Source of the DNA: Microbacterium sp.
GTDB taxonomy: Bacteria > Actinomycetota > Actinomycetes > Actinomycetales > Microbacteriaceae
NCBI GenBank assembly: GCA_029239635.1
Contig: JARBUN010000003.1
Span: forward strand, 54,535-118,534
Direction of reading: 5' to 3'
DNA: 64,000 nt
Shown here: positions 35,803 through 59,851 of the stretch, in pieces
Layout of the letters: every line of letters begins with the position of its first letter
How positions within the stretch are numbered: position 1 is the first letter of the stretch
Translations under genes and position numbers: made by a program
The notes under the pieces: generated by a model
What the model saw: the letters and a program-made list of their open reading frames with translations, nothing else
What the model was told of the DNA's origin: nothing
Databases searched by the model: none

Positions 35803-36465
35803 TCAGCCGGCAGCCTCTCCGTCTGCGAGACGCGCGTCGAGGAACGCGCGGACGTCGTCGAGCTCATCCTGCGAGATCGAGTGCGTGAGCCCCGGGTAGA
35901 CCCGACCGCTCAGCTCGCTGTGCCCGGGGAGCCACTGCGCCGTCGCGTCGATCAGGTGCGTCGGGATGACATCGTCCGCCGCGCCGCGCGCCCAGAACAC
36001 CGGAGGCCTCCGTTCGGCGAGCACCGCGTCGCCGGGGAGCTCGCCGCCGGCCGCGTACCCGGCCAGGACCACCACGAACGAGACCGCCTCGGGGTCCGCG
36101 CGCAGCGTCTGCACGGCGACCGCGCCGCCCTGGGAGAAGCCCAGGAGTCCCACGGGCCGGTCGCCCACAGCATCCTGAATCCAGGCGAGCACGGACTCGG
36201 CCGCGCGGGTCACGGCGCCCGGATCGCGTCCGTTCAGCCCTTCGATGGGATACCACGAGGCCCCGGGCATGGGCCACGGTGGGGCGAGAGGGGCGCGCAG
36301 ACTCGCGATCACGTACTCGGCGGGGAGGTACGGAGCGAGTCCGAACAGGTCGTGCTCGTCGGAGCCGTACCCGTGCAGGAGGAGCAGGACCGGTCGATCC
36401 CCGCGTTCGGACGGCGGCACGGACCACCGGACGAGGGAGGGATCGAGGGAGAGGGGCGTGCTCAT
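35803..36465 (-). CDS. Carboxylesterase/phospholipase-type alpha/beta hydrolase
   Basis: RPVLLLLHGYGSDEHDLFGLAPYLP; LGFSQGGAVAVQ; LTHSIS; start reassigned to 36465. Confidence 0.87.
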   Translation of the reverse strand: MSTPLSLDPSLVRWSVPPSERGDRPVLLLLHGYGSDEHDLFGLAPYLPAEYVIASLRAPLAPPWPMPGASWYPIEGLNGRDPGAVTRAAESVLAWIQDAVGDRPVGLLGFSQGGAVAVQTLRADPEAVSFVVVLAGYAAGGELPGDAVLAERRPPVFWARGAADDVIPTHLIDATAQWLPGHSELSGRVYPGLTHSISQDELDDVRAFLDARLADGEAAG

Positions 36466-46065: not shown

Positions 46066-46140
46066 CGCCCCTTGCCCAGTCTGTCGCGCGGCGCGCGCCG
46101 CGTCGAGGCCGCATTGTGCGCCCCGCTCGCAACACGCGTC

Positions 46141-46195
46141 GAGTGTCCACGACACGCCGCATCACCCGCGGGGTTGCGGCGTGTTCTGGACACTC
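46141..46195. repeat. Long intergenic palindrome
   Basis: GAGTGTCCACGACACGCCGCA-N13-TGCGGCGTGTTCTGGACACTC: 19/21 pairs, extending outward with one indel (ACACG-CGTC / AACGTCGTGT). Confidence 0.75.
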
Positions 46196-46244
46196 AACGT
46201 CGTGTACGAGGCGCGGGCAGCCGCGCCGCGCGATCGGTGCCGGA

Positions 46245-56835: not shown

Positions 56836-57791
56836 GCTCTTCGATCCTCCCTCCCGCTCCCAGCGGCGGTCCCGTCGACGACAACGCCGTGGTCGACACG
56901 CAACTGCTCGCCGCCCAGGCGCGCGGCGGCTTCTGGCACGACGTCTTCCAGCGCCTGCGCCGGAGCCCCGTCGCCTGGATCGGCGCGATCATCGTGCTGG
57001 CCTTCCTGCTCGTCGCCGCTCTCGCGCCGCTGCTCGCGCCCTATCCGGCCGAGTCGCTGCCGGGCCAGCGCTTCATCACGCCCACCGACATCCCGGGGCC
57101 GGGCGAGATGGCGGAGTTCCCCCTCGGCCTCGACCGCTTCGGCGGCGATGTGCTGTCGAAGCTCATCTGGGGTGCCCAGGCCTCGCTGCAGATCGGCGTC
57201 ATCTCCACCGCTCTCGGCCTCATCGGCGGCATGTTCCTGGGGCTGCTCGCCGGCATGTTCGGCGGCTGGGTCGACGCGCTCGTCATGCGCTTCGTCGACA
57301 TCCTGCTGTCCGTCCCCAACCTGCTGCTCGCCGTCTCGATCGCCGCGATCCTCGGCCAGAGCCAGCTCGCGATCATGATCGCGATCGGCGCCTCGCAGGT
57401 GCCCGTGTTCGCGCGGTTGCTGCGCGCCTCGATGCTGCAGCAGCGCGGTGCCGACTACGTGCTGTCGGCGCAGACCCTCGGCCTCAGCCGCCGCACGATC
57501 ACGATGACCCACGTGCTGCCCAACAGCGTCGGCCCCGTCATCGTGCAGGGCACCCTGACGCTGGCGACCGCCGTGATCGACGCCGCCGCGCTGTCGTTCC
57601 TGGGCCTCGGCGGCGGACTCCCGCAGACCGCCGAGTGGGGCCGGATGCTCACCTACGCGCAGGCCGAGCTCGCGATCGCCCCGTGGCTGGCGTTCCTCCC
57701 CGGCATCTGCATCGCCGTCACCGCCCTGGGGTTCACGCTGCTGGGCGAGTCGCTCCGCGAGGCGATGGACCCGCGCACGCGGGCGCGGTAG
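56832..57791 (+). CDS. Peptide ABC transporter permease (DppC-like; GTG start, 4-nt overlap)
   Basis: FPLGLDRFGGDVLSKLIWGAQASLQIG; RASMLQQRGADYVLSAQTLGLSRRTI. Confidence 0.93.
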   Translation: MSSSILPPAPSGGPVDDNAVVDTQLLAAQARGGFWHDVFQRLRRSPVAWIGAIIVLAFLLVAALAPLLAPYPAESLPGQRFITPTDIPGPGEMAEFPLGLDRFGGDVLSKLIWGAQASLQIGVISTALGLIGGMFLGLLAGMFGGWVDALVMRFVDILLSVPNLLLAVSIAAILGQSQLAIMIAIGASQVPVFARLLRASMLQQRGADYVLSAQTLGLSRRTITMTHVLPNSVGPVIVQGTLTLATAVIDAAALSFLGLGGGLPQTAEWGRMLTYAQAELAIAPWLAFLPGICIAVTALGFTLLGESLREAMDPRTRAR

Positions 57792-57896
57792 CGCGCGGAT
57801 CTCCACCGTCGCCGCGACGACGCCGTCCCCGTCCCGGTTCGCTCGCGCGGGCCGGGGCCGCGGCCGGCGTCGGTCGCAAGCGTCGGCGCGACACCC

Positions 57897-57973
57897 CATG
57901 TCCCACTTCTTGCGGGTTGTCGCCCGCTGCGCCGGCCATTTGTGGGACATGCACCGCTAAGAGTGGGACATGC
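57897..57973. repeat. 77-bp intergenic element, copy A
   Basis: CATGTCCCACTTCTTGCGGGTTG...CCGGCCATTTGTGGGACATGCACCGCTAAGAGTGGGACATGC. Confidence 0.85.
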
Positions 57974-58068
57974 ACCGCCTCGGCCGGGAGACACACCGCC
58001 TCGACCCGGTTATGCACGCCTCAGCCTGGACGCGCTCGGCGCGTGCGCGGCGCCGGCGTCCCGGCATC

Positions 58069-58145
58069 CATGTCCCACTTATTGCGGGTTGGAGACCGCT
58101 GAGCCGGCCATTTGTGGGACATGCACCGCTACAAGTGGGACATGC
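58069..58145. repeat. 77-bp intergenic element, copy B
   Basis: CATGTCCCACTTATTGCGGGTTG...CCGGCCATTTGTGGGACATGCACCGCTACAAGTGGGACATGC; about 7 differences from copy A. Confidence 0.85.
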
Positions 58146-58183
58146 CTCGCGAGCAGAGCCGCCGCCGCCCCCGGCTCGCAGCC

Positions 58184-59851
58184 TCAGCCGGTCAGCCCCA
58201 ACTCGTTCCCCGGGATCGACGACAGCAGCCGCCGCGTGTACGGGTCGCGGGGGTTGGTGAAGACCTCTTCACTGGATGCCGCCTCGACCAGGCGCCCGTC
58301 CTTCATCACGCAGACGTAGTCGCTGATCAGGCGCACCACCGCGAGGTCGTGCGAGATGAAGAGGTAGCTGAGGCCGTACTCGCGCTGCAGGTCGCCGAGC
58401 AGGTCGAGGATCTGCGCCTGCACGAGAACGTCGAGCGCCGACACCGGCTCGTCGCACACGATGAGCTCGGGCGAGAGCGCGAGGGCGCGCGCGATCGCCA
58501 CGCGCTGCCGCTGCCCGCCGGACAGCTCCGAGGGGTAGCGGCGGAGCATGGATGCCGGCAGGGCCACGTCATCCATCAACTCGCGCACGCGCTTGGTGCG
58601 GTCGGCCTTCGAGCCGCGCTTGTAGAAGGAGAGCGGCTCCTCGACGATCCGCTCGACGGTGAACATCGGGTTCAGGCTCGAGTAGGGGTCCTGGAAGATC
58701 GGCTGCACCTTCTGCCGGAACTGCCGTAGCGCCTCGCCCTTCAGGGTCGAGACGTCCTGCCCGTCGAACCGGATGGATCCGCTCGTGGGGTCCACGACCT
58801 TCAGCAGCATGCGCGCGGTGGTCGTCTTGCCGGAGCCGGATTCGCCGACGATCGCGACGGTCTGGCCGCGGGGGATCGCCAGCGACACGTCGTCGACGGC
58901 GCGGAAGTCCTCGCCGCGACCGCGCACGGGGTACACCTTCGTCAGGTTCTCGATCTCCACGATGTTGTCGCGTGCCGGTGTCATCGCCCGCTCGCCGCGG
59001 AAGTCCTCCGGCCGCAGACGCACCGCCGCGACCGACGGTGCCGCGGCCACGAGCGACTTCGTGTACGCGTGCTGCGGGTTCTCGAGGATCTGCTTCGCCG
59101 GCCCCTGCTCGACCACGCGTCCGCGGTGCATCACGACGACCTTCGACGCCCGCTCGGCCGCGAGCCCCAGGTCGTGCGTGATCAGCAGGACGGCGGCGCC
59201 CAGCTCGTCCGTCTGCTTGTCGATCTGGTCGAGGATCGTCTGCTGCACGGTCACGTCGAGCGCGCTCGTGGGCTCGTCCGCGATGAGCAGGCGCGGGCGG
59301 CACGCGAGGCCGATCGCGATGAGCGCACGCTGGCGCATGCCGCCGGAGAACTCGTGCGGATACTGGGTCGCCCGCTTCTCGGCATCCGGGAGTCCGGCGG
59401 CCTCGAGCGCCTCGACGACCTTGCCCTTCACGCTCGCGCGGTCCGCGAGGCCGTGCGCGAGGAGCGTCTCGGCGACCTGCGTGCCGATCTTCGCGACGGG
59501 GTTGAGGTTCGACATCGGGTCCTGCGGAACGAGGCCGATCTGCCGCCCGCGCACCTGGCGCATGCGGGCCTCGCCGAAGGTCGTGAGGTCTTCGCCGTCG
59601 AGGAGGATCTGTCCGCGCGCGACACGGCCACCGGATGCCAACAGGCCGATGATCGCCATCGCGGTCGTCGACTTGCCGGAGCCGGACTCGCCGACGATCG
59701 CGATGGTCTCGCCCGCGTGGATGTCGAGACTCACCCCGTCGACGGCCCGCACGGGGCCGTCCATGGTGGCGAAGTCGACGGCCAGATCACGGACCGAGAG
59801 GAGGGGCTGGGGGGATGCCGGAGCGGGGGGACCGGCGACATCGGAGGTCAT
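58184..59851 (-). CDS. Fused dual-domain peptide ABC transporter ATPase (DppD-DppF)
   Basis: Two complete ATPase domains (GESGSGKSTTAMAI...SGGMRQRALIAIGLACRPRLLIADEPTSALDVT; GESGSGKTTTARM...LSGGQRQRVAIARALALSPELIVCDEPVSALDV). Confidence 0.93.
   Translation of the reverse strand: MTSDVAGPPAPASPQPLLSVRDLAVDFATMDGPVRAVDGVSLDIHAGETIAIVGESGSGKSTTAMAIIGLLASGGRVARGQILLDGEDLTTFGEARMRQVRGRQIGLVPQDPMSNLNPVAKIGTQVAETLLAHGLADRASVKGKVVEALEAAGLPDAEKRATQYPHEFSGGMRQRALIAIGLACRPRLLIADEPTSALDVTVQQTILDQIDKQTDELGAAVLLITHDLGLAAERASKVVVMHRGRVVEQGPAKQILENPQHAYTKSLVAAAPSVAAVRLRPEDFRGERAMTPARDNIVEIENLTKVYPVRGRGEDFRAVDDVSLAIPRGQTVAIVGESGSGKTTTARMLLKVVDPTSGSIRFDGQDVSTLKGEALRQFRQKVQPIFQDPYSSLNPMFTVERIVEEPLSFYKRGSKADRTKRVRELMDDVALPASMLRRYPSELSGGQRQRVAIARALALSPELIVCDEPVSALDVLVQAQILDLLGDLQREYGLSYLFISHDLAVVRLISDYVCVMKDGRLVEAASSEEVFTNPRDPYTRRLLSSIPGNELGLTG

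Follow-up and report, generated by a model that had tools for sequence, protein, structure and literature searches.

What are the two nearly identical 77-bp sequences that sit between two convergent genes in the window (the whole 64,000-nt stretch of a Microbacterium sp. contig that was analyzed here), and do they have anything to do with a gene? The sequence-only reading had described two copies of equal length, each with one forward and two reversed boxes, in the gap between convergent dppC-like and fused ATPase genes, all of which was borne out: the genes are a dppC-like permease gene, which ends at 57791, and a fused ABC ATPase gene, which ends at 58184, the copies are 91% identical by blastn (7 differences), and exact CATGTCCCAC boxes are located at 57897 (+), 57942 (-) and 57963 (-) in copy 1 and at 58069 (+), 58114 (-) and 58135 (-) in copy 2, no exact box being present in the window besides these six. 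On the minus strand of the window, each copy has the layout U1-U2-loop-U3', where the units of about 20 bp follow the consensus CATGTCCCACTTnTGGCnGG, U1 and U2 being direct units set at a pitch of 21 bp and U3 an inverted one. The features of the gap are as follows:

57792..58183, no strand: convergent intergenic region of 392 bp with both copies (gene ends, orthologous gaps)
57897..57973, minus strand: element copy 1, 77 bp (sequence, blastn 91% to copy 2, family alignment)
57897..57916, plus strand: inverted unit U3 of copy 1, CATGTCCCACTTCTTGCGGG (box position, unit consensus)
57942..57951, minus strand: box of U2 of copy 1 (box position)
57963..57972, minus strand: box of U1 of copy 1, 21 bp from U2, which is the direct array pitch (box position)
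58069..58145, minus strand: element copy 2, 77 bp, direct repeat of copy 1 with a 172-bp spacing (sequence, blastn, family alignment)
58069..58088, plus strand: inverted unit U3 of copy 2 (box position)
58114..58123, minus strand: box of U2 of copy 2 (box position)
58135..58144, minus strand: box of U1 of copy 2 (box position)

Neither a sigma-70-like promoter nor a T-tract terminator was found in this gap (zero terminator-like sites at 57700-58300), and no Rfam family matched the element significantly, the best one, twister-P3, scoring 19.4 bits versus a gathering threshold of 39.9 (E 0.41); folded as single-stranded DNA, the window copies gave z values of -2.7 to -3.2. The idea of a bidirectional terminator, which had been among the initial suggestions, is thus unsupported, given that there is no T-tract and that the stem sequence follows a specific gene, as detailed below. 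A purely local duplication, which a lack of both further copies and covariation would have indicated, does not fit either: blastn of the 77-mer, the check that had been proposed, retrieved further intergenic copies in its own genome and in several Microbacterium genomes, and the stem of these dispersed copies covaries.

Searches with the pattern GTGGGACATG and with the 77-mer itself (one very short match in the genome of another family being left out) place the element within a dispersed intergenic repeat family that is confined to Microbacterium. The two-unit pattern run over GTDB yielded 76 stretches, all of them from Microbacterium except for three contigs, and an HMM counted 141 copies in those stretches; the hairpin core is present in 131 of the 369 Microbacterium genomes (0-2 hits per genome for a reversed-pattern control), which is far more than chance would give, with up to 43 copies per genome, and no copy was found in the plasmid and phage record collections. 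The three exceptional contigs (L088, L101 and L115) are labelled Stenotrophomonas maltophilia P13, carry Microbacterium-type repeats and probably represent contamination of that assembly. The number of direct units ranges from one to about five among the loci, many of which carry tandem arrays, and the long runs of direct units at the same 21-bp pitch at L043 (1465-1620) and L055 (1350-2030) suggest that the unit number itself expands. Among 71 non-redundant copies, covariation of the U2/U3 stem reached a summed z of 29.6 at register 0 and at most 5.1 in slid registers, which remove the relatedness that shuffles leave in, and it exceeded that of both U1-U3 and U1-U2. The earlier suggestions of a dispersed non-autonomous repeat and of a protein-binding array were, therefore, each right in part, the former as to the dispersal, which is genus-wide, and the latter as to the array of sites of about 20 bp.

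That no transposase accompanies the copies had also been pointed out, and this is literally true, but a partner nuclease gene flanked by the same elements was overlooked because it is located elsewhere in the genome. In several of the stretches, two arrays in inverted orientation lie about 1.2 kb apart with a single gene of about 305 aa between them; in the cases checked, this gene resides between pfkA and a prolyl-oligopeptidase gene (ptrB), which are also its neighbors at the loci examined by reading, and the arrays stand on both of its sides, pointing inwards. When the 369 Microbacterium genomes were searched, all 30 of the closest homologues were found to adjoin elements, 28 of them on both sides. 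The copy of the gene in the genome that the window comes from (G000:C175:26810-27694) likewise lies between pfkA and the peptidase gene and has degenerate elements at both flanks.

The encoded protein seems to combine an AbiEi-like N-terminal part with a C-terminal nuclease of the Vsr/EDxHD type (MTES_1575, DUF559-like), judging by sequence profiles and by weak fold scores. Its C-terminus matches MTES_1575 of Pfam at E 1e-5 to 1e-4 (22.6-25.5 bits, below the curated cut-off of 38.2) and DUF559 weakly, and the Vsr-like core (E, D, E.DG..H and D.DR) is present, with E198, D231, E242, D244, H248, D258, D260, R261, H278 and H279 each kept in 68-69 of the 69 proteins. As these residues are nearly invariant and the dN/dS of the gene is 0.12-0.16, the nuclease gene is under purifying selection. 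A sequence search against solved structures gave no match for the protein; an AlphaFold model from a shallow alignment (five sequences) was confident for the C-terminal domain and poor for the N-terminal one, and Foldseek paired the N-terminus with an AbiEi antitoxin and Rv2827c and the C-terminus with the catalytic domain of I-Bth0305I, none of these matches being individually significant by E-value. MTES_1575 itself was introduced in the literature as a new REase of the Vsr type that is joined to a HEPN domain in M. testaceum, and was discussed among conflict systems (PMC3710099). The conserved REase core is shared with PF18741 (REase_MTES_1575) and DUF559, whereas the score below the PF18741 cut-off and the AbiEi-REase architecture of about 300 aa set the protein apart; similarly, its N-terminal fold resembles AbiEi antitoxins and Rv2827c, yet a nuclease domain is fused to it here, and the neighbors read at the pfkA locus are pfkA and the prolyl-oligopeptidase gene and not an AbiEii toxin gene. 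Plasmid-borne homologues of the protein were represented by three Arthrobacter records with uninformative annotation.

Does the repeat really belong to this gene? With the gene scored at E<=1e-90 and the repeat at >=2 hairpin cores, 59 of the 369 genomes have both, 2 the gene only, 38 the repeat only and 270 neither, which corresponds to a phylogeny-uncorrected odds ratio of about 210. One of the gene-only genomes, G263, has the flank boxes at its gene changed to GTCCCG, giving palindromes of a type that the pattern is unable to count. Many of the 38 repeat-only genomes do have a homologue, if a weaker one, either at this locus or at a different one; those with repeats and no close homologue at the threshold include G084 (11 copies) as well as G225 and G362 (5 copies), which are candidates for either gene loss with surviving repeats or a diverged partner. 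The association extends to the sequence of the stem: the stems flanking the gene are closest to the dispersed copies of their own genome in 9 of 11 genomes (ranking second and third in the other two), a match reached in 0 of 20000 permutations, and the distance between repeats follows that between whole proteins (Mantel r 0.55, 0/2000), with no protein region standing out in this Mantel-type comparison as the one behind the specificity. On these sequence comparisons, the pairing of the nuclease gene with the repeat is well supported, and we would be surprised to see it overturned.

Elements show a preference for gaps between convergent genes, which make up 27 of the 48 gaps with elements vs. 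31 of the 146 without, and are nearly absent from divergent ones (2/48 vs. 28/146), although these counts come from a crude gene caller, by which 77 of 116 cores fell into a called gap. The gap orthologous to that of the window is occupied in the genome of the window itself (G000), G380, G210 and G220, whereas G024 has a decayed copy and at least six genomes (G085, G025, G193, G008, G031 and G299) have a short gap of 24-59 bp with no element; the copy in G220 has a stem of G220's own type. Near relatives differ by entire tandem units of about 100-160 bp, and differences in tandem copy number are the clearest recent changes; no transposition intermediate was seen, nor was a target duplication in the comparison of the orthologous gaps, which are too diverged for duplications to be read. 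The same gap holds a palindrome of a different family, GAGAACAGGGGATGC...GCATCCCCTGTTCTCG, in G091, G027 and G092 (L232, L238 and L237).

The 77-bp elements are thus probably dispersed non-coding hairpin repeats of a two-part system with the nuclease gene, resembling REP/RAYT systems and relying on an unrelated enzyme. One part would be the single-copy chromosomal gene for the AbiEi-like/Vsr-type protein of about 305 aa, with the pfkA-prolyl-oligopeptidase interval as its usual place in Microbacterium, and the other would be the scattered copies, found mainly in 3'-3' gaps. The pairing, its sequence specificity, the stem covariation, the conservation of the nuclease and the presence of both occupied and empty orthologous sites are established at the level of sequence comparison; as for the mechanism, the N-terminal domain of the protein might bind the units of about 20 bp, the protein might nick or cut folded or inverted-repeat DNA, the repeat so processed would be copied into new intergenic places, with arrays growing in tandem, and the host would retain the gene at a fixed locus, as it does with RAYT genes. 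We lean towards the reading that the repeat is processed and spread by the enzyme, by analogy and with less assurance than we have in the two-part system as such.

The analogy is with REP/REPIN repeats and their RAYT (TnpA-REP, "REPtrons"), i.e., short intergenic palindromes, often in inverted or tandem clusters, with a bias towards convergent or downstream positions, where a dedicated single-copy gene has the repeat at its flanks, a genome holds several families with one gene apiece and the protein co-evolves with the repeat (PMC3733652, PMC8266576, PMC3116915). Here, too, a single nuclease-type gene has cognate repeats on its sides, further copies of which are scattered over the genome, and the intergenic hairpins, tandem clusters, convergent bias, several families with their own genes and co-evolution of protein and repeat are found alike; the units of about 20 bp at a 21-bp pitch are different, and the enzyme is of the Vsr/MTES_1575 type and not HUH, and, as it belongs to an unrelated superfamily, the system is not REP/RAYT proper. 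REP/REPIN elements of the classical kind, mobilized by a RAYT transposase of the HUH (Y1) type, would share these habits of intergenic hairpins, tandem clusters and a repeat-flanked single-copy gene (PMC3733652, PMC3116915), but Y1_Tnp (PF01797) was detected in 0 of 24 repeat-bearing genomes vs. 5 of 14 control genomes, neither a GTAG nor a CGTC tag was present at the hairpin foot (the feet being GTCCCAC, GTGTCTCA, GTGTCC, GAACGGTCGC and others), no GTAG-tagged stem occurs and the repeats follow another gene, which leaves this explanation with hardly any probability and refutes an HUH RAYT for the genomes tested. It is because the arrangement is REP/RAYT-like, without the Y1 transposase or the REP tags, that a REP-like system with a nuclease of the AbiEi/Vsr type as its enzyme is proposed. 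CGTC-tagged REPs form a large class for which no dedicated transposase has been found (PMC3733652) and are REP-like as well; they, however, have another sequence and other hosts, and for the repeats described here a dedicated partner gene has been identified.

Three further explanations, all of low probability, can be offered. In one, the AbiEi-like domain would act as a repressor with the flanking palindromes as its operators, while the dispersed copies would serve as operators of other genes or as decoys; the binding of AbiEi antitoxins to inverted repeats at their own promoter, the fold match and the palindromes near the gene start speak for such a regulon, yet the palindromes occur just as much on the downstream side of the gene, the dispersed copies concentrate in gaps between convergent genes and hardly occur in divergent promoter gaps, and repression needs no conserved nuclease center, so that we find it unlikely. 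Marginally less likely still would be a selfish or defensive system in which the nuclease, for example one of the homing or abortive-infection kind, has the repeats as its sites of recognition or protection, these being kept by addiction instead of spreading by transposition: the weak fold match to the catalytic domain of a phage homing endonuclease and the conflict-system context of PF18741, which was named from the HEPN-fused Vsr REase of M. testaceum (PMC3710099), are in its favor, but the repeats persist without a close homologue of the gene in G084 and G225, and their copy number and location vary freely. The TGT...ACA ends and the 21-bp sites, which are like the ends of Tn7, Tn5053 or IS21-type elements, might also bring to mind a MITE of a DDE insertion sequence, with TGTCCCAC/GTGGGACA as terminal inverted repeats and the internal sites regularly spaced; the gene within the inverted pairs examined, however, is the nuclease at its fixed locus, with no transposase seen between them, no target duplication was noticed in gaps that are too diverged for the breakpoints to be read, and a unit number of one to five or so would be hard for a transposon end to tolerate, all of which makes a MITE very unlikely.

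The two-part system of nuclease gene and hairpin repeat is also supported by paralogues at other loci and by homologues in other genera and families, which have different palindromes, again on both sides. Four palindromes derived from such flanks were used as genome queries, two of them as blind ones, and all four turned out to be dispersed in their own genome and scarce or missing where the genome lacks the gene type concerned. The GTGTCTCA...TGAGACAC palindrome has 24 copies in G305, 18 in G323, 13 in G080 and 22 in G079, and zero in 25 of 26 other genomes tested; in G305, G323 and G080, a paralogue between palindromes of this type was verified by reading, and in G079 the homologue (C79:35143-36012) lies between hairpins at C79:34959-35010 and 36131-36328. 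The two blind queries, both taken from flanks of homologues outside the genus, gave 9 copies of the GAACGGTCGC type in G502 and 11 of the GTCC-AAAGTTGTCGC type in G516, each with 0 in 11 others. Across the order, where the homologues are 33-43% identical, the palindromes up- and downstream of the gene match each other at 19.7 of 22 positions vs. 16.4 for swapped pairs (0/20000 permutations), and in a control with random 900-bp segments the palindrome match was 17.0, with 20 reached by 1 of 120.

The genome of the window provides a replicate of its own, since a hairpin of the same type as the flanks of its second nuclease paralogue is found within the window:

46137..46199, no strand: second-family hairpin, GAGTGTCC-ACACGCCG...CGGCGTGT-GGACACTC (same type as the flanks of the second paralogue in G000)

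This second paralogue (G000:C108:41808-42686, L287) is flanked by GAGTGTCC-ACACGCCG palindromes, of which the genome has about 10 copies by pattern, and the family is present in 38 of the 369 genomes.

The open-access literature yielded neither a link of DUF559/MTES_1575 proteins to palindromic repeats nor a description of such repeats in Microbacteriaceae. We would tentatively, at somewhat less than even confidence, extend the proposal to an undescribed and widespread actinobacterial class where a domesticated nuclease of the Vsr/EDxHD kind, carrying an AbiEi-type DNA-binding domain, would recognize and spread its own palindrome, convergent with RAYTs, yet with a different chemistry and with specificities diverging between species. 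Among the repeats of bacterial genomes, REP-like ones are some of the commonest, and the HUH-type RAYT is the only partner described in the REP papers cited above. A further enzyme type that is unrelated to RAYT and comes in many gene-palindrome pairs of differing sequence would make the origin and upkeep of such repeats testable outside of the RAYT world, would give the many hypothetical Vsr/DUF559-like proteins of actinobacteria a role and, if true, would provide a large natural panel of nuclease-hairpin pairs from which the evolution of nuclease DNA specificity could be read. As a minor observation, a homologous gene in G129, G024 and G178 (L197, L214 and L226) has GTGTCC-AACACCCGGAC palindromes as its flanks, and its aligned frame contains an internal stop in L197 and L214.
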